Made by a program: the position numbers and the translations under genes. The notes under the pieces were generated by a model. It was not told the origin of the DNA. It saw nothing but the letters and a program-made list of their open reading frames with translations, and did no database searches. DNA of 64,000 nt from Kutzneria viridogrisea (lineage in GTDB: Bacteria > Actinomycetota > Actinomycetes > Mycobacteriales > Pseudonocardiaceae), in the NCBI GenBank assembly GCA_014138725.1, contig JACJID010000002.1, positions 1,006,001 to 1,070,000 on the forward strand. The letters are read 5' to 3'. Positions 55,445 through 64,000 of this stretch are shown one piece after another (the stretch's first letter is position 1; each line of letters opens with the position of its first letter).

Positions 55445-58400
55445 TCACGGCAGGTCGGAGGCGTGCAGGGTCTGCAACTCCTCATCGGGCAGTGCGTCCA
55501 GGTCCACCTCGGGACCGGCCAGCCGCACGGCCTGGCGGGCGATGGCGCGCTCCAGCAGACCGCGTGCGGAGCGCCCGTTGGCGAAGCCGGTGCCGCGGTC
55601 GATCGCGGCGACGGCGGCGGGCAGCGCGGCCACCAGGTCCTCGGCGAGCAGGTAGCCCTGGCCGGTGGCCATCACCTGGAAGATCCGGGACAGCTCCTCG
55701 TCGGAGTAGTCCGGGAAGTGCACGGTGGCCCCGAACCGGGACCGCAGACCCGAGTTGGCGTCCAGGAAGCGGTCCATGTCCGCCGGGTAGCCCGCCGCGA
55801 TCACCATCAGGTCATCGCGGTGGTTCTCCATCTGCACCAACAACTCCGCCACCGCCTCGGCGCCGAAGTCGTTGCCGTACTCCTGCACCAGGTTGTACGC
55901 CTCGTCGATGAACAGCACCCCGCCGAGCGCCTGCTCGGCAACTGCCCGGGTCTTCGGCGCGGTCTGCCCGATGTACTCCCCCACCAGGTCTGGCCGCCCG
56001 GTCTCGACCAGGTGGCCGGAGGACAGCACGCCCAGTTCCCGGTAGATCTGCGCGATCAGCCGGGCCACCGTCGTCTTGGCCGTACCGGGATTGCCCGTGA
56101 AGACCAGGTGCCTGCTGCGCGCGGAGACCTTCAGCCCGGCGCTGCGGCGGCGCGCGTCCACCCGCGTCTCGGCCACCAGCGTGCGGACCTGCTCCTTGAC
56201 CGGCTCCAGACCGACCATCGCCTCCAGCTCGGCGAGTAGCTCGGCCAGTCCACGGGCCTTGCCCCCGTCGCCCTGCGCGACCCCGCTGTCCTGCGGCGAG
56301 GGCAGGTCGGCGGCCACCAACTCGTTGAGCGCGGCCGGATCCAGGTCCGGCGTACCCGCCAACCGCTGCGACTGCACGTTGATCGTGGCCTCCAGCAACT
56401 GCCGCGCCGAACGCCCGTTGGCGAAACCCCGGCCCCGTGGGATGCGGGTGACCCGGTTGGGCAGCTCGGCGAGCAGGTCGGGCGCCAGCGAGTAGCCCTG
56501 ACCGGTGGCCATGACCTGGAAGATCCGGGACAGCTCATCGTTGGAGTAGTCCGGAAACTCCACCCGGTTCGCGAACCGCGAGCGCAGACCCGGGTTCGCC
56601 TCCATGAACTCGTCCATCAACTTCGGGTAGCCCGCCACGATGACCAGCAGGTCCCCGCGCCGGTTCTCCATCTGCACCAACAGTTCCGTGACGGCCTCCT
56701 GGCCGGAACTATCCTCAGACCCCTGCACGAGGTTGTACGCCTCATCGATGAACAGCACCCCACCGAAGGCCCGGTCGGCCAGTTCGCGGGTCTTCGGCGC
56801 GGTCGAACCCGCGTACTGGCCGATGAAATCGGTGCGCCCGGTCTCGACCAGGTGGCCGGAGGACAGCACACCCAGCTCCCGGTAGATCTGCGCGATCAAC
56901 CGGGCCACGGTTGTCTTCGCGGTGCCTGGATTTCCGGTGAAGACGAGGTGCCTGCTGCGCTCCGGGATCCGCATCCCGGCGGCACGGCGTTGGGCGTCGA
57001 TCTCCATCTCCGCGGTCATCGCCCGCACCCGCTGCTTGACCGGCTCCAGGCCGATCATGCCGTCCAGCTCCGCCAGCAGGGTCGGCAGGTCCTTGCGCTT
57101 GCCACCATCCCCTTGCGCCACACCGCTTTCCTCCGGCGCGGGCAGGTCGGCGGCCACCAACTCGTTGAGCGCGGCCGGATCCAGGTCCGGCGTGCCCGCC
57201 AGCCGCTGCGACTGGAGGTTGATCGTGGCCTCCAGCAGCTGCCTGGCCGAACGCCCGTTGGCGAAACCCCGGCCCCGTGGGATCAGCCGAACCCGTTGTG
57301 CCAGTTGGGAAACCAGCTCCTGGTCCAGGGTGTAGCCCTGACCGGTGGCCATGATCTGGAAGATCCGGGACAGCTCATCGTTGCTGTAGTCCGGGAACTC
57401 GACGCGGTTGGCGAACCGGGAGCGCAGGCCGGGGTTGGCCTCCATGAACTCGTCCATCAGGTTCGGGTACCCGGCGACGATCACGAGCAGGTCGTCGCGC
57501 CGGTTCTCCATCTGCACCAACAGTTCCGTGACGGCCTCCTGGCCGGAACTGTCCTCAGGCCCCTGCACGAGGTTGTACGCCTCATCGATGAACAGCACCC
57601 CACCGTACGCGCGGTCCAGCAGTTCGCGGGTCTTCGGCGCGGTCGAACCCGCGTACTGGCCGACGAAGTCCGTGCGGCTGGACTCGACCAAATGGCCGGA
57701 GGACAGCACACCCAGCTCCCGGTAGATCTGCGCGATCAACCGGGCCACCGTCGTCTTGGCCGTACCGGGATTGCCCGTGAACACCAGGTGCCTGGTGCGC
57801 TCGGGCACCTTCATGCCCGCCGACCGGCGCTGCGAGTCCACCTCCATCTCGGCGGCCATCGCCCGCACCCGCTGCTTGACCGGCGCCAGACCGATCATGC
57901 CGTCCAACTCGGCAAGCAGGGTCGGCAGGTCCTTGCGCTTGCCACCATCCCCTTGCCCCACGCCGATGTCCTCCGGCTCGGGCAGGTCGGCGACGAGGAG
58001 CTGGCTCAACTGGGCCGCGTTCACGTCCGCGAGCGTGGCGAGCCGCTCGGACTGGCGCGAGATCGTGCCTTCCAGCAGCTGCCGCGCCGAACGCCCGTTG
58101 GCAAAACCCCGGCCCCGTGGGATCAGCCGAACCCGGTGCGGCAGTTGGGAAACCAGCTCCTGGTCCAGGGTGTAGCCCTGGGACTTGGCGATCACCTGGA
58201 AGATCCGGGACAGCTCCTCGTTGGAGTAGTCCGGGAACTCCACCCGGTTCGCGAACCGGGACCGCAGGCCGGGATTGGCCTCCATGAACTCGTCCATCAA
58301 CTTCGGGTAGCCCGCCACGATGACGACCAGGTCCTCGCGGTGGTTCTCCATCTGCACCAGCAGTTCCGCGACCGCCTCGGTGCCGAAGTCGGCGCTCTCG

Positions 58401-60733
58401 CTGTAGTCCTGCACGAGGTTGTACGCCTCGTCGATGAACAGGATGCCGCCCAGCGCGTCCTCGCAGACCTTCCTGGTCTTGATCGGGGTCTGCCCGAGAT
58501 ACCCGGCGACCAGGTCCGAACGCTGCACCTCGACCACGTGCCCGGAGGTGACCACACCCAGTTCCCGGTAGATCTCGCCGATCAGCCGGGCCACGGTGGT
58601 CTTGGCCGTACCGGGATTGCCCGTGAACACCAGGTGCCTGCTGCGCGCGGACAGCTTGAGCCCGGACTCGCGGCGCTTGCGGTCCACGTCCATCTCGGCG
58701 ACCATCGCCCGCACCCGGCGCTTGACCGGCTCCAGGCCGATCATGGCGTCCAGTTCGGCCAGCAGCTCGGGCAGTTCGCGCTGGCGGCCACCCTCGCCCA
58801 TGCGCACACCGGTGTCGGCGGGCGCGGGCAGGTCCTCGGCGAGCAGCGTGTTCAGCTGGGCCGGGCTGGAGTTGGGCGTGGCGGCCAGCCGGGCGGACTG
58901 GCGGCCGATGCTGGCCTCCAGCAGCTGGCGGGCCGAGCGGCCGTTGGCGAAACCCTTGCCCCGGCTGATCCGCGAGATGCGCCTGGGCAGCGCGGCGACC
59001 AGCTCCGGCGCGAGCGTGTAGCCCTGGGACTTGGCCATCAGCGCGAAGATGCGGGCCAGTTCCTCGTTGCTGTAGTCCGGGAACTCGATCCTGGTCTGGA
59101 ACCGCGAGCGCAGGCCGGGGTTGGAGTCCAGGAAGGTGCTCATCTCCCTCGGGTAGCCCGCCATGATCACGATCAGGTCGTCCCGGTGGTTCTCCATCTG
59201 CACCAGGACCTCGGCCACCGCCTCCTGGCCGAAGTCGCCCTCGCTCTGCTCCTGCACGAGGTTGTACGCCTCGTCCACGAACAGCACCCCTCCGTGCGCC
59301 TGTTGCACCAGTTTGCGGGTCTTGGTGGAGGTCTCGCCGATGTACTCCCCCACCAGGTCGGCGCGACCGCACTCGACGAGTTGCCCGCCCTCCAGCACGC
59401 CCAGCTCCCGGTAGATCTCCGCGAGCAGCCGGGCCACCGTGGTCTTGGCCGTACCGGGGTTGCCGGTGAACAACAGGTGCCTGCTGCGCTGCGGGATCGG
59501 CAGCCCCGCGGCCTTGCGCCGGGAGTCCACCTCCAGCTCGGCGACCAGGTTGCGCACCTGCTGCTTGACCGAGTCCAGGCCGACCATCGCGTCCAGTTCG
59601 GCCAGCAGCTGGGCCGGGGACTTGCGGCCCGCGTCCGCCGCGGCGGCCTGGTGCAGCGCGGCCAGGTCCGGCATGTCCACGTACAGGGCGTGCGGGGCAC
59701 CGCCGCGCATGATGGCGCCCTGGCAGGCCGTCTCGACCAGCGCCTCGACCCGCCGTGCCCCCGCGGTGGAGCGGTGCGCCCTGCCCTTGAGCACCAGGTC
59801 GACCAGTCCGAACCGGGCCTGCGGGCTGACGGTGGCCCGCCGCTCGGCGGCCAGCACGTCCACCAGGGCCTCCACCGCGGCGGGCCGGGTCAGGTCGGGC
59901 AGGCGGTACACCAGCGCGCGCTGCACCACGGCGGGCGCGGCCTTGCTCAGCGCCTGGTAGAACGCCTCGGTCCCGGCCAGGGCGAGCACCCAGCACTTGG
60001 TCTGGTTGTGCGCGACCTCCACGAACAGGTCGAACAGGGCACCCGCGCTGGACACGTCGCCGACCAGCGAGTCCATGTCCTCGATCAGGTAGACCATGGG
60101 CTGGCAGTCGTCCGCCTCGCGCACGTTCACCCGCATCTGCGCGTCCACCGTGCGGTCGTTCTGCTTGGCGTCGGCCATGACCTCGGTCGCGGTCTCGGAC
60201 CAGTGCGTGTCGTTGGAGAGCACCTTGCTCGGCAGCAGGGCGTCGTGCAGCCCCTTGGCCAGCCGGTTCTGCCCGGTGTGCTGCGGGCCGATCAGCAGCA
60301 CCAGCGGGTTGGCCTGGCCGTTGCCGCTGCCGGAGTGCCGCACCCCGTCCGCCCAGGAGATCACCCGCGAGGCCCGCTGGAGGAAGGCCGAGACGGGTTC
60401 GCTGGTGGCCACGAAGCGGCGGCCGTCGGCCAGCGCCTCCACCACGGCCTGCCCGGCCGGGATCACAGGTGTGGGTTGCGACACGGGCTGCTGCTGCACG
60501 GGCTGTTGGGGCTGCACCGGTTGCTGCGGCTGCGCGGGGCGGGCCGAGGCGCGGAACGCGGGGTCGGCGGGCGGCGCGAGGGGCTGCCACTGGCCGCTGC
60601 CCCGCCACCACAACCAGGGCTGACCTGGGCGCAGGGCCCACCAGGCGCCGTCAGGGGTGGTGAGCATCGTCTCTCTGCCCAGCGCGGCCTGGCGCTCGGC
60701 CTCGGCGAACGGATCCCACCCCGGGCCGGTCAT
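55445..60733 (-). CDS. Giant protein with six tandem AAA+ modules (CbxX/EccA-like)
   Basis: 1762-residue protein. After an N-terminal Trp- and Pro/Gln-rich region (~1-95) come six modules of ~280 residues. Modules 2-6 each have ELDAM(I/V)GL(E/D), Walker A TGNPGTAKTTVARL, Walker B-like LFIDEAYNLVQ, and GFANGRSARQLLE with the arginine sensor. Their Walker A sites fall near residues 420, 702, 984, 1264 and 1544. Module 1 keeps the spacing but has a broken P-loop (GPQHTGQNRLAKGL) and an intact YLIEDMDSLVG. Single-module relatives are CbxX/CfxQ, SpoVK and the type VII secretion ATPase EccA. No type VII genes are nearby. ATG 60733 follows GGAGGGGG. Confidence 0.85.
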   Translation of the reverse strand: MTGPGWDPFAEAERQAALGRETMLTTPDGAWWALRPGQPWLWWRGSGQWQPLAPPADPAFRASARPAQPQQPVQPQQPVQQQPVSQPTPVIPAGQAVVEALADGRRFVATSEPVSAFLQRASRVISWADGVRHSGSGNGQANPLVLLIGPQHTGQNRLAKGLHDALLPSKVLSNDTHWSETATEVMADAKQNDRTVDAQMRVNVREADDCQPMVYLIEDMDSLVGDVSSAGALFDLFVEVAHNQTKCWVLALAGTEAFYQALSKAAPAVVQRALVYRLPDLTRPAAVEALVDVLAAERRATVSPQARFGLVDLVLKGRAHRSTAGARRVEALVETACQGAIMRGGAPHALYVDMPDLAALHQAAAADAGRKSPAQLLAELDAMVGLDSVKQQVRNLVAELEVDSRRKAAGLPIPQRSRHLLFTGNPGTAKTTVARLLAEIYRELGVLEGGQLVECGRADLVGEYIGETSTKTRKLVQQAHGGVLFVDEAYNLVQEQSEGDFGQEAVAEVLVQMENHRDDLIVIMAGYPREMSTFLDSNPGLRSRFQTRIEFPDYSNEELARIFALMAKSQGYTLAPELVAALPRRISRISRGKGFANGRSARQLLEASIGRQSARLAATPNSSPAQLNTLLAEDLPAPADTGVRMGEGGRQRELPELLAELDAMIGLEPVKRRVRAMVAEMDVDRKRRESGLKLSARSRHLVFTGNPGTAKTTVARLIGEIYRELGVVTSGHVVEVQRSDLVAGYLGQTPIKTRKVCEDALGGILFIDEAYNLVQDYSESADFGTEAVAELLVQMENHREDLVVIVAGYPKLMDEFMEANPGLRSRFANRVEFPDYSNEELSRIFQVIAKSQGYTLDQELVSQLPHRVRLIPRGRGFANGRSARQLLEGTISRQSERLATLADVNAAQLSQLLVADLPEPEDIGVGQGDGGKRKDLPTLLAELDGMIGLAPVKQRVRAMAAEMEVDSQRRSAGMKVPERTRHLVFTGNPGTAKTTVARLIAQIYRELGVLSSGHLVESSRTDFVGQYAGSTAPKTRELLDRAYGGVLFIDEAYNLVQGPEDSSGQEAVTELLVQMENRRDDLLVIVAGYPNLMDEFMEANPGLRSRFANRVEFPDYSNDELSRIFQIMATGQGYTLDQELVSQLAQRVRLIPRGRGFANGRSARQLLEATINLQSQRLAGTPDLDPAALNELVAADLPAPEESGVAQGDGGKRKDLPTLLAELDGMIGLEPVKQRVRAMTAEMEIDAQRRAAGMRIPERSRHLVFTGNPGTAKTTVARLIAQIYRELGVLSSGHLVETGRTDFIGQYAGSTAPKTRELADRAFGGVLFIDEAYNLVQGSEDSSGQEAVTELLVQMENRRGDLLVIVAGYPKLMDEFMEANPGLRSRFANRVEFPDYSNDELSRIFQVMATGQGYSLAPDLLAELPNRVTRIPRGRGFANGRSARQLLEATINVQSQRLAGTPDLDPAALNELVAADLPSPQDSGVAQGDGGKARGLAELLAELEAMVGLEPVKEQVRTLVAETRVDARRRSAGLKVSARSRHLVFTGNPGTAKTTVARLIAQIYRELGVLSSGHLVETGRPDLVGEYIGQTAPKTRAVAEQALGGVLFIDEAYNLVQEYGNDFGAEAVAELLVQMENHRDDLMVIAAGYPADMDRFLDANSGLRSRFGATVHFPDYSDEELSRIFQVMATGQGYLLAEDLVAALPAAVAAIDRGTGFANGRSARGLLERAIARQAVRLAGPEVDLDALPDEELQTLHASDLP

Positions 60734-60830
60734 GGATCCCCCTCCTGCTGCTGGCTCAGATCCACTTCGCAGGATACGGCCCCCGCCGCGAGGCCGTGGG
60801 CGGTCTAAGTTGGTCCCCGTGGGAGCGGGT

Positions 60831-61325
60831 GTGTCGGTGCGCCGGGCGCGCATCGCCGACGTGCGGGAGATCAAGGCACTGGTCGACCAGTACGCGGGCA
60901 AGGTGCTGCTGACCAAGCAGCTGGTGACGTTGTACGAGTCGGTGCAGGAGTTCTGGGTCGCCGAGTCGGACGGGGTGCTGCTGGGCTGCGGCGCGCTGCA
61001 CGTGCTGTGGGAGGACCTGGCGGAGATCCGCACGGTCGCGGTGGACCCGCTGGCACTGGGCAGGGGCGTGGGCGGCGCGATCGTGGGCAAGCTGATCGAG
61101 GAAGCCAGGGAACTGGGGCTGGCTCGCATCTTCGTGCTGACCTTCGAGACCTCCTTCTTCCGCGGGCACGGGTTCGTGGAGATCGACGGGACCCCGGTGT
61201 CCACCGAGGTGTACGAGGAGATGCGCCGGTCCTTCGACGAGGGCGTCGCGGAGTTCCTGGACCTGCCCTACGTCAAGCCGAACACCCTGGGCAACACGCG
61301 CATGCTGCTGGAGCTCAAGCCGTAA
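60831..61325 (+). CDS. argA: GNAT acetyltransferase, ArgA-like (L-glutamate N-acetyltransferase)
   Basis: 164-residue GNAT protein similar to the small mycobacterial ArgA (Rv2747 type), the first enzyme of arginine synthesis. Shared features are RRARIADVREIKALVDQYAG, VQEFWVAE, GCGALHVLWEDLAEIRTVAV, the acetyl-CoA loop LGRGVGGAIVGKL, FVLTFETSFFRGHGF and EFLDLPYVKPNTLGNTRMLL. GTG 60831 has GGGAG 5 nt upstream; GTG 60819 adds four residues. In mycobacteria this gene lies near pgsA/clgR/psp, as here. Divergent from the AAA+ repeat gene. Confidence 0.87.
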   Translation: MSVRRARIADVREIKALVDQYAGKVLLTKQLVTLYESVQEFWVAESDGVLLGCGALHVLWEDLAEIRTVAVDPLALGRGVGGAIVGKLIEEARELGLARIFVLTFETSFFRGHGFVEIDGTPVSTEVYEEMRRSFDEGVAEFLDLPYVKPNTLGNTRMLLELKP

Positions 61326-61380
61326 CTCTTCGAGTAAATACTAGAAGAGTCTTGACTCGCCTAGTCGAGGCGAGCAGTAT
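61325..61380 (+). promoter_or_regulatory. Promoter with two dyads in front of the MerR regulator
   Basis: A 26-bp near-palindrome at 61325-61350 (arms ACTCTTC and GAAGAGT, AGTA and TACT) is followed by a -35 TTGACT (61352-61357). A perfect dyad CTCGCCT-AGTCG-AGGCGAG (61356-61374) fills the spacer, and a poor -10 CAGTAT (61375-61380) lies 6 nt before the GTG start. A dyad between -35 and -10 with a weak -10 is the MerR-type activation layout. The transcript would be leaderless. Confidence 0.6.
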
Positions 61381-61386
61381 CGGCCT

Positions 61387-62211
61387 GTGTCCGTCGAACT
61401 GAGCGTCGAGGAGCTGGCCGGCCGCGTGGGCGTGCCGACCAGCACCGTGCGCATGTACCAGACCAAGGGGCTGCTGCACCCGCCGCGCAAGGTCGGCCGC
61501 ACCGCGCGTTACGACAGCTCGCACCTGCAACGCATGGTGCTCGTGCAACGCCTCCAGGAGCGCGGCTTCTCGCTGCCCTCGATCGCCGAGCTGATCGCCG
61601 CCCGCGAGCAGGGCGCCACCGTGGCCGAGGTGCTCGGCCTCAGCGGCGGCCCCGAGGACTGGGTGCCGCTGGGCCTGCGCGAACTGCGCCGACTGGTCAA
61701 GGCCCGCGACCTGCGGCCCAAGCTGTTGCGCCGGGCCAGCAAGCTCGGGCTGATCCGCTGGCGGGCGGGCCGCCCGCAGACCCGGCGCTGGGCCCTGGAG
61801 AGCGGGCTGCGCCTGTGCGAGCTGGACATGCCACCGGAGGAGGTGCTGGACCAGTTCGTGCGGCTGCGCGCGGGCACCGACCAGATCGCCGCCGACTTCG
61901 TGGCCGTGTTCGAGCGCAGGCTGTGGCCCCAGGTGGCCGCGGGCAGCAACCAGGCCGACCAGCTCGGCCGGGTCCGCGCCCTGCTGGAGGAGCTGACCGG
62001 CATCGCCGAGGGCGTGGTGGTCGGCGCGCTGCGGCAGTCGGTGCGCGAGGCCGCCGAGGAGTTCGCCCGGCGGCACGAACTGGTGCCGGCGCAGGGCGAG
62101 GGCCCGGCGTGGCTGAGCCAGCCGGTGCCGGTGCTGCGCGAGCACCTCACCGACTCCGCCGAGGAGGACCCGGACATCGAGCGGTTCCTCGCCGAGGAGG
62201 AGCACCAATGA
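61387..62211 (+). CDS. MerR-family regulator of the azoline-peptide operon
   Basis: 274-residue regulator. The N-terminal winged HTH is ELAGRVGVPTSTVRMYQTKG followed by LLHPPRKVGRTARYDSSHLQ and LQERGFSLPSIAELI, as in MerR proteins. The ~190-residue C-terminal part is helical and large for the family. It contains VPLGLRELRRLVKARDLRPK, which might be a second DNA- or ligand-binding segment. No Cys metal site, so not a metal sensor. Its stop overlaps the next ATG (ATGA). Preceded by a dyad-rich promoter. Confidence 0.82.
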   Translation: MSVELSVEELAGRVGVPTSTVRMYQTKGLLHPPRKVGRTARYDSSHLQRMVLVQRLQERGFSLPSIAELIAAREQGATVAEVLGLSGGPEDWVPLGLRELRRLVKARDLRPKLLRRASKLGLIRWRAGRPQTRRWALESGLRLCELDMPPEEVLDQFVRLRAGTDQIAADFVAVFERRLWPQVAAGSNQADQLGRVRALLEELTGIAEGVVVGALRQSVREAAEEFARRHELVPAQGEGPAWLSQPVPVLREHLTDSAEEDPDIERFLAEEEHQ

Positions 62212-62969
62212 CCACGCTGGTGGCCGATCAGCGGTGGCGGGTGCGGTCCGCACCAGAGGGGGCCGTGCTGTCGGCCGGTGCCGACCTGTCCTACCTGCTG
62301 CCCGAGCTGACCGCCGCCGAAGCCGCACTGCTGGCCGATTTCTTCGAGCCGTCACCAGGGGGGACGACCCGGAAGATCGACCCGCGGCGCGTGCCGGACG
62401 CGGTGCGCCAGGTGTTGCCGCAACTGCGGACCCTGGGCGCACTGCGTCCGGCCGACCTGCCCACCGGGCCCCGGTTGCGCACCGGGCTGCGCTGGGCCGG
62501 TGTGGAACTGCCGGAGTTCCCGTCCACTGTGGACGAAGACCCCGACCTGGTTGTCGTGGTGCGCACCACCGGGACCTGGCGCCAGGTCGCACGGATCGCC
62601 GACGAGCTGACCGTCCCGCACCTGCTGCTGGACCTGTCCTACCACCACCGCGCCTCGATCGGCCCGCTCGTCGTGCCGGGGGCCAGCGCCTGCCTGGCCT
62701 GCCTCGCCGTGCGGGTCGGCTGGCGCTGGGGCGACGAGCAGCCGCCCGCCCGTCCCCGCGCCACCGAGGACCTGACCTTTCCCGCCGCGCTCGTGCGGCA
62801 CGCCGTGCGCCGCATCGGCGAGGGCTCGCTCGCGCTGCTGGAGCGGATCGTCAGCTACGACCTGGACGAGCTCACCAGCACCGCCGAGCAGGTGCTGCCC
62901 TCGGCCAACTGCCCGGTGTGCCCGCACCAGCCCGTCGGCCGGACAAGACTGCCCTGGGAGAAGCCATGA
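62208..62969 (+). CDS. ThiF/SagC-like leader-binding cyclodehydratase partner (TOMM type)
   Basis: 253-residue protein resembling the ocin-ThiF-like/cyclo_dehyd_2 proteins that bind the leader of azoline-forming peptides and deliver it to YcaO. It shows a winged-helix-like N-terminus (LLPELTAAEAALLADFF), PDLVVVVRTTGTWRQV, PHLLLDLSYHHRASIGPLVV and GASACLACLAVR. The late NCPVCP together with CLAC would form a four-Cys zinc site as in E1-like proteins. No ATP-binding GxGxxG is evident, as expected for a docking subunit. Start and stop overlap both neighbours (ATGA). Confidence 0.75.
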   Translation: MTTLVADQRWRVRSAPEGAVLSAGADLSYLLPELTAAEAALLADFFEPSPGGTTRKIDPRRVPDAVRQVLPQLRTLGALRPADLPTGPRLRTGLRWAGVELPEFPSTVDEDPDLVVVVRTTGTWRQVARIADELTVPHLLLDLSYHHRASIGPLVVPGASACLACLAVRVGWRWGDEQPPARPRATEDLTFPAALVRHAVRRIGEGSLALLERIVSYDLDELTSTAEQVLPSANCPVCPHQPVGRTRLPWEKP

Positions 62970-63466
62970 CCACGCTCGTCCGGTTGCCCGACCAGTTCAC
63001 CCCCGGCGGGGTCGCCGTGGAAACCGCCGCCACACCGACCTGTTGCTGCTGCTGTTGCGTGGCTTCCGTGGCCGCCGTCGCCACCGCGCTGCCCGCCGGG
63101 CTGGCACAGGACGTACGGACCACGGGAGAGCGGATCAGCCCAGTGATCGCCATGGTCCCGTTGGGCGGCCTGGGCATCGCACTGGCCCCGCTCCTCGCGA
63201 TGATCTCCGGCAGCCGCGCGATCCCCGGGTTCTGGGCGTGGCAGGTACTGGCCTTCGCGCTGGCGGGGATCTTCGTCTACGGGGTGAGCCGCGCGGTCGG
63301 GTCGCCCAGGCCGTGGCGGTCAGTGCTGCGGCTGTCGATGCTGGCGCCTTTGGCGGTGCTGGAGATGATGGTCGTCTTCTCCGCCGGGATCCTGTGGGCC
63401 GGGTTCCTGCTCGCCCCACTGATGATCATCGCTGTGATCGCCTTCTACGGCTTGGACAAGTCGTGA
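62966..63466 (+). CDS. Cys6-motif precursor-like N-terminus fused to a four-helix membrane domain
   Basis: 166-residue protein I cannot assign to a characterised family. Residues 1-25 resemble a leader (VRLPDQFTPGG, AVETAATPT). Residues 26-31 are six consecutive Cys followed by VASVAAVATALPAG, reminiscent of the streptolysin S precursor (APGG then CCCCC). Residues ~55-165 hold about four membrane segments (MVPLGGLGIALAPLLAMI, AWQVLAFALAGIFVYGV, then two more) ending YGLDKS. It overlaps the ThiF-like and YcaO genes by 4 nt on each side, so it is the natural substrate candidate. The fusion to a membrane domain is unusual. Confidence 0.7.
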   Translation: MTTLVRLPDQFTPGGVAVETAATPTCCCCCCVASVAAVATALPAGLAQDVRTTGERISPVIAMVPLGGLGIALAPLLAMISGSRAIPGFWAWQVLAFALAGIFVYGVSRAVGSPRPWRSVLRLSMLAPLAVLEMMVVFSAGILWAGFLLAPLMIIAVIAFYGLDKS

Positions 63467-64000
63467 GGACCGCCTCCGCCACACTGCTGGAGCGTGCCGT
63501 CGGCTGGCGGCAGGGTGTGGTCCGCCAACTGCACGAGGTGCCGACCACACCCGCTGACGTGCCGGTCGGCAACTGGGCGGCGATCAGCGACTACGGCACC
63601 TCGGGCGGCGCGGGCTCGGGCGGACGGCTCGCGGCGCTGGCCGAGGCGTTGGAACGGCACGCGGCGGCGAGCTGCCCACTGGAGTCGCAGACCCCGCCCG
63701 CGGGCGCCGAGGTCTGGGACTTCTCCTTGCGCACCAAGGACTACACGCAGGTGTGGACGCTGCCGGGCAACGAGCCGGTCTGGGTGCCCACCGGGCTGGT
63801 CGGACTGAGCCCCGAGTTCGGCATGCAGGCGACCTCCTCCGGGTTGGCCGCCGCACCGTCCACCGAACACGCCCTGTTGCGCGCGTTGCAGGAACTCGTG
63901 GAACGGGACGCCTTCACCGTGACCTGGCTGCACGGCGTGGCGGCGCGGCGGGTCGAGACGCCCGAGGAGCTGGCCCGCCCGGTTGCCGAGCTGGGCGGCG
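63463..64000 (+). CDS. YcaO-domain cyclodehydratase (N-terminal part, cut by window edge)
   Basis: GTG 63463 overlaps the previous stop as GTGA and opens a frame of 179 codons that runs off the right edge. The protein shows the YcaO ATP-binding signatures: GGRLAALAEALERHAA (E-x3-ER type) and EHALLRALQELVERDAF (E-x6-ELVERD). YcaO enzymes activate peptide amides with ATP to close thiazoline or oxazoline rings from Cys, Ser or Thr. Position next to a ThiF-like partner and a Cys-rich substrate fits a TOMM pathway. A dehydrogenase or transporter may lie beyond the edge. Confidence 0.85.
   Translation, partial: MRTASATLLERAVGWRQGVVRQLHEVPTTPADVPVGNWAAISDYGTSGGAGSGGRLAALAEALERHAAASCPLESQTPPAGAEVWDFSLRTKDYTQVWTLPGNEPVWVPTGLVGLSPEFGMQATSSGLAAAPSTEHALLRALQELVERDAFTVTWLHGVAARRVETPEELARPVAELGG

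Follow-up and report, generated by a model that had tools for sequence, protein, structure and literature searches.

The window, the whole 64,000-nucleotide stretch analysed here (contig C2, positions 1006001-1070000, of the 10.2-Mb genome of Kutzneria viridogrisea, a member of the Pseudonocardiaceae, the same family as Lentzea), carries at its right end an operon which, with moderate confidence, we read as a cassette of the linear azol(in)e-containing peptide (LAP) or thiazole/oxazole-modified microcin (TOMM) type that acts on an integral membrane protein. A run of consecutive cysteines near the N-terminus of this protein, here called CysTM, would be converted to azol(in)es while the protein stays tethered to the membrane. 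The cassette consists of a C protein, CysTM, a YcaO (D) protein and a SagB-type (B) protein, and follows a gene for a MerR-family regulator (Table 1). The preliminary description of this DNA had proposed that the Cys run is an azole core carried on a membrane protein, and this sequence-based reading is now supported by gene content, gene order, co-occurrence and constraint.

The four genes from MerR to YcaO overlap by 4 nucleotides (nt) each, every junction and coordinate being as first described. The YcaO gene ends at position 6584 of L004, a 19-kb stretch extending beyond the window, with NPNPHPLG as the tail of its product, and the SagB-like gene begins 3 nt later, followed on its 3' side by a convergent M1 peptidase. 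A dehydrogenase, which had been sought right of position 64000, is thus present after the remainder of YcaO, and the predicted azole-forming enzyme set of C, D and B proteins is complete in the operon. The order MerR-C-CysTM-YcaO-B is common to all 27 family loci fetched besides that of the window. The earlier label of the second protein as ThiF/SagC-like is backed by TIGR03882, which is above its cut-off in the C proteins of the window, of L036 and of three distant genomes; two Cys pairs are invariant in the C protein alignment (A4). The SagB-type protein matches PF00881 above cut-off (4.7e-11), and a KYG motif found in the window and in 27/27 loci corresponds to the Lys-Tyr pair which we take to be catalytic in that family. 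The full-length YcaO is likewise above cut-off for PF02624 (2.6e-33) and ends, again in the window and 27/27 loci, in PxPxP, called canonical for azoline-forming YcaOs in PMC12338566. TIGR03605, PF02624 and TIGR03882 are given as critical components of LAP biosynthesis in PMC5719810.

CysTM reaches no family cut-off in Pfam or NCBIfam. Its N-terminus reads MTTLVRLPDQFTPGGVAVETAATPT, and the TPT plus six Cys at residues 26-31 that were reported at first are plain in the translation. The pattern (TGY)6 has one match in the window and none in 100 shuffles, which argues that the run is not a chance product; the genome has it at four separate places, the best codon statistics at the other three belonging to frames that encode poly-Gln (two) or poly-Leu (one). 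CysTM homologues were aligned in two sets, 29 rows from the family (A1) and five distant rows (A8), 34 altogether. All 29 family rows share R6, L7, P8, D9, F11, A21, A22, T23, P24, T25 and six Cys without exception, and the five distant ones QF, TPT and six Cys. Across all 34 rows QF is retained and TPT leads into a stretch of 6-10 Cys/Ser residues that includes six or more Cys in succession, the sole intruding residue being Ser (CSC8 in L057 and L060, CCSC7 in L098, CSSC7 in L102); variable non-Cys residues at positions 26-31, which had been named as a finding that would speak against an azole core, were not seen. With six Cys the window protein is atypical among relatives that have 7-9 (every other family row has 8, and the distant rows range from 7 to 9). 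Constraint is strongest at the leader and the Cys run, in support of the proposed core: mean pairwise identity is 0.80 for the leader, 0.97 for the run, 0.61 for the post-Cys region and 0.46 for the membrane part, and the ratio of nonsynonymous to synonymous change (dN/dS) in 22 Lentzea genes is 0.12, 0, 0.30 and 0.58, respectively, the run having a pN of 0, i.e., no amino-acid change at all. The run shows little synonymous change as well in these genes (pS 0.058), and TGT makes up 117 of 230 Cys-run codons as compared to 26 of 296 Cys codons of the four remaining genes (27 loci); as a guess, this preference could reflect avoidance of repeat slippage.

About four membrane helices had been predicted for the third protein, and hydropathy gives four segments beyond residue 58. 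The membrane domain is found in 29/29 family and 5/5 distant rows; hydropathy yields four segments in 10 of the 11 family rows computed (three in L042) and in each of the five distant rows, and CysTM length ranges from 166 to 226 amino acids (aa) among cassettes. Whether this domain is constant, a point raised in the preliminary description, has a divided answer, since its presence is universal among the 34 rows whereas its sequence diverges, with one glutamate kept. This glutamate, located in the third helix (Glu133 in the window), is invariant in both alignments; a strict buried-residue filter counts it in 33/34 rows, the exception being L097, which has a Gln close by. Only the N-terminal 57 columns align (probability 99.5%) when the family and distant CysTM profiles are compared. 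Lys and Arg concentrate in two places, the loop that follows the second segment and the tail, in those Lentzea rows that have four segments, which suggests that both CysTM ends are cytosolic, where the enzymes are. The Cys run together with the following 13 residues is itself hydrophobic (mean hydropathy near 2) and may enter the membrane.

The cassette parts also share their distribution. Among 297 genomes of the family, 45 have CysTM matches at E<=0.01: 28 genomes with 29 strongly matching genes (1.1e-10 or better; two stand in tandem in L051) and 17 with weak matches (5e-5 to 0.01). All 29 strong genes lie inside the cassette. The YcaO profile finds 40 of the same 297 genomes at E<=1e-20, and the 28 with a cassette-type YcaO, at 1.2e-181 or better, are the very 28 with strong CysTM matches; after a gap in E follow a decayed copy in G088 (1.5e-37) and then 11 further genomes, none better than 4.7e-33. 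The expected co-occurrence of CysTM homologues with YcaO and ThiF-like genes is thus borne out by the same 28/297 genomes and by the five-gene order in 27/27 loci. The YcaO profile detected no intact cassette-type copy in any of the 17 weak-match genomes; of six weak-match neighbourhoods viewed (G231, G088, G295, G174, G153, G037), only that of G088 holds broken cassette pieces, G295 having pieces at its GNAT locus. In a YcaO tree the rows group by genus, well apart from a second YcaO encoded in the same genome, and the three distant rows form long branches with unsure joins.

CysTM is present in 22/24 Lentzea genomes at one syntenic locus. An order-level sample gave matches at E<=0.01 in 8/298 genomes (four strong, the G088 fragment and three weak), and the YcaO profile matched 4/396 genomes of a phylum sample at E<=1e-25, strongly in the window genome, G786 and G807; the match in G581 (6.5e-26) was not accepted, no CysTM being found beside it. 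A class sample gave 2/247 matches and added G1050. Cassette YcaO occurs in 1/345 genomes of the class of the window genome (its own) and in 1/24 of the class of G786 (G786 itself), and from such single hits it follows that the cassette is rare and patchy outside Lentzea. The distant actinobacterial genomes G786, G807 and G1050 each carry C-CysTM-YcaO-B, with two CysTM genes each in G807 and G1050; MerR had no match in their fetched stretches, that of G786 beginning merely 272 bases before C. Plasmids gave no match, and a first scan of genome contigs returned 129 stretches, none confirmed as a cassette. Organisms that can be named as carriers are a lower bound, with at least one confirmed locus among the contig-scan matches listed, that of Lentzea aerocolonigenes NRRL B-16140 (L069), whose C, CysTM and YcaO genes were read. 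A C7 run on contig 22 of G083 was set aside, its 13-kb stretch being without a YcaO match.

The conserved locus comprises RimO, GNAT, MerR, the cassette, mostly a phospholipase A2 (PLA2; PF09056) and FtsK. According to a crude open reading frame (ORF) caller, PLA2 is present in 26 of the 28 cassette loci, and no protease or exporter, in particular no ABC transporter or CaaX-like protease, is among their conserved neighbours. GNAT was found in 20/20 further family genomes asked; of these loci 16 were fetched, and they contained no intact cassette, kept MerR in 10 cases and PLA2 in 8, and in G295 included pieces of C and B. Broken cassette pieces occur also in G088 (L064), and the two Lentzea without CysTM retain GNAT-MerR-PLA2. 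Since loci without an intact cassette can retain these neighbours, C-CysTM-YcaO-B would come and go as a unit, probably as an old possession of the family that has been lost many times. MerR, kept beside GNAT without an intact cassette, was rejected as a cassette part and appears to serve the locus; PLA2 was rejected as a core part because of its retention in the 8 loci. The PLA2 protein looks secreted, its gene lying between cassette and FtsK (L004:9488-10012 and relatives).

A separate short precursor beyond the window edge had been considered as the actual YcaO target, and L004 contains no second Cys run of at least five, in a scan that sees Cys-rich candidates only. Across L004 and L036-L068, the only such runs in the 28 intact-cassette loci are those of the CysTM genes; elsewhere in L036-L068 there is one run of five, in L063. 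Enlarged gaps beside CysTM hold small membrane-like ORFs without Cys runs in two loci (L045:9406-9588 and L062:9415-9667).

On the 5' side of MerR, beside TTGACT, lies the palindrome ACTCTTCGAGT-n4-ACTCGAAGAGT. Both arms are clear by eye in at least 26 of the 28 cassette loci, the left one being lost in L057 and partly in L060, and the palindrome is recognisable in 6/6 loci without an intact cassette (imperfect in L078). Allowing up to 3 mismatches, the window genome has no other such site, and for this reason MerR looks dedicated to its locus and the palindrome is likely its operator.

Put together, these elements suggest the following order of events. Judging from the position, conservation and uniqueness of the palindrome, MerR would control the operon from there; the C protein would capture the N-terminal RLPDxF leader of CysTM; YcaO would, as its family and motifs imply, use ATP to cyclise the Cys of the run, along with any Ser among them, into azolines, which the SagB-type flavoenzyme would oxidise to azoles. 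In the least certain step, the polyazole segment would remain attached to the four helices and their conserved glutamate and act in the membrane of the producer, where ion or metal handling, sensing or membrane perturbation are candidate tasks. We see an even chance that the C/D/B complex builds in this way a polyazole rod on a membrane protein of the producer, as a permanent structure with an intramembrane glutamate and not as a secreted natural product. Of the two outcomes that the preliminary description had placed side by side, a tethered product fits better than a precursor fused to its own exporter or immunity part, since neither a protease nor an exporter is conserved alongside the cassette. 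A lasting membrane protein is suggested by the same absence together with the retained membrane-domain glutamate.

Several observations weigh against the assignment as a LAP-type cassette with a tethered substrate. The N-terminal 90-91-aa pieces of five C proteins gave no Pfam match to RRE or PqqD, and the C profile has weak matches in the PDB (LynD, E 0.016; TruD, E 0.076). YcaO is below the curated cut-off of TIGR03604 (6.2e-38) and its profile matches the structures of MJ1094 (a YcaO), TruD and LynD at 5e-8 to 9e-4, thus resisting easy classification; the SagB-type protein is below that of TIGR03605 (2.9e-12). The membrane parts of family and distant CysTM gave no profile alignment, and in G1050 an ABC half-transporter gene lies 39 bases 5' of C (L102:69-1529, at the contig start), which could mean export. 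That transporter, the faster evolution of the membrane part (dN/dS 0.58) and classical LAP logic would all suit a system in which the membrane domain is a follower, an export aid or a means of self-protection and the modified run is cut free by a protease encoded elsewhere, the polyazole peptide being the product. We consider this improbable, given that neither protease nor exporter is conserved with the cassette, that all 34 CysTM retain the membrane-domain glutamate and that the post-Cys region is constrained too (dN/dS 0.30).

The subfamily scores of YcaO and B below cut-off would, in turn, be accounted for if the Cys run formed no azoles and was instead metal-binding, acylated or disulphide-bonded, with YcaO and SagB acting on another protein; yet CysTM and cassette YcaO occur in the same 28/297 genomes, Ser replacing or extending Cys suits cyclodehydration and not metal or disulphide use, and intact cassette loci have no other Cys-run gene, which makes this idea quite unlikely. 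Least of all do we expect a membrane-active agent similar to streptolysin S, built as a membrane protein and harming neighbouring cells. Tandem CysTM genes in three genomes and the contiguous cyclisable core before a variable C-terminal part, as described for cytolysins in PMC4603692, would agree with such an agent, whereas neither an ABC transporter nor a CaaX-like protease is conserved with the cassette, and its retention in 22/24 Lentzea at one locus suggests a domestic task.

YcaO enzymes can modify working proteins, as in the thioamidation of McrA. The CysTM cassette would resemble that case in acting on a working protein rather than a peptide product, and differs from it in chemistry, in the soluble nature of the McrA target and in a YcaO that scores TIGR03604 far above TIGR03266. 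Closer in composition are the cytolysin (streptolysin S, sag-type) LAP clusters with their discrete C, D and SagB-type B proteins and a substrate whose cyclisable residues form one uninterrupted core ahead of a variable C-terminal part (PMC4603692). In contrast to these, the candidate substrate here is a membrane protein of 166-226 aa, an ABC transporter or CaaX-like protease is not conserved, and TPT followed by 6-10 Cys/Ser stands in place of a Gly that precedes at least 10 cyclisable residues. The propionisin clusters are actinobacterial, too, with a D protein near those of cytolysins and with contiguous cyclisable residues before an extension free of Cys, Ser and Thr, but they have ABC transporters, several CaaX-like proteases and peptide precursors (PMC4603692). 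LAP clusters of Brevibacterium likewise combine TIGR03605, PF02624 and TIGR03882, whereas they encode precursor peptides and lie on genomic islands (PMC5719810) rather than at one syntenic core locus with a membrane-protein substrate.

The precursor criterion of a main LAP survey (PMC4603692) is a gene under 450 bp or a protein under 150 aa that is rich in Cys, Ser or Thr in its C-terminal half. CysTM of the window, with 166 aa, its Cys run near the N-terminus and a membrane domain behind it, falls outside, so that substrates of this class would be missed by design, a blind spot of that survey; a term search of its main text finds no occurrence of the word "membrane". Nor did the literature searched, with most subscription journals outside it, contain a YcaO system with a membrane-protein substrate as judged by title or abstract start. 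If the proposal holds, azole chemistry would extend beyond secreted toxins and antibiotics to the remodelling of one of the producer's membrane proteins, and with a small cassette that has its own probable operator and is present in named Lentzea strains the question is directly testable.

Table 1. Positions of the cassette genes and associated elements (window numbering unless preceded by L004).
Feature	Position	Strand	Evidence
MerR-family regulator	61387..62211	+	PF13411 1.9e-18
C protein, 253 aa (TOMM leader-peptide-binding / E1-like)	62208..62969	+	TIGR03882 1.4e-12, above cut-off
CysTM, 166 aa, candidate substrate (leader, Cys run and membrane domain)	62966..63466	+	translation, alignment
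CysTM leader-like residues 1-25 (RLPDxF ... AATPT)	62966..63040	+	invariant positions, 29/29 rows
CysTM Cys6 run, residues 26-31, proposed azole-forming core	63041..63058	+	translation, alignment
CysTM membrane domain, residues 53-166, with Glu133 (63362-63364)	63122..63463	+	hydropathy, alignment
YcaO (D protein), 5' part; 584 further bases beyond window	63463..64000	+	PF02624
SagB-type gene (B), 246 aa	L004:6588-7328		PF00881, TIGR03605
Palindrome, likely MerR operator, immediately 5' of TTGACT box (61352-61357)	61325..61350	+	conservation, genome uniqueness

Other genes of types known from ribosomally synthesised and post-translationally modified peptides (RiPPs) exist in the window genome. 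A LanB-type dehydratase (Lant_dehydr_N and _C) and a LanC-like cyclase are encoded on the minus strand at L004:14314-18596, roughly 8-13 kb beyond the right edge of the window, which places lanthipeptide-type genes near the CysTM cassette. Two further YcaO matches at L005 (C10:294000-313000) mark another RiPP neighbourhood, whose companion ORFs were labelled by eye as SagB-like, dehydratase-like and asparagine-synthase-like. Within the window, a single ORF on the minus strand (55445-61204) contains five tandem AAA+ P-loop motifs (GNPGTAKTTVAR).

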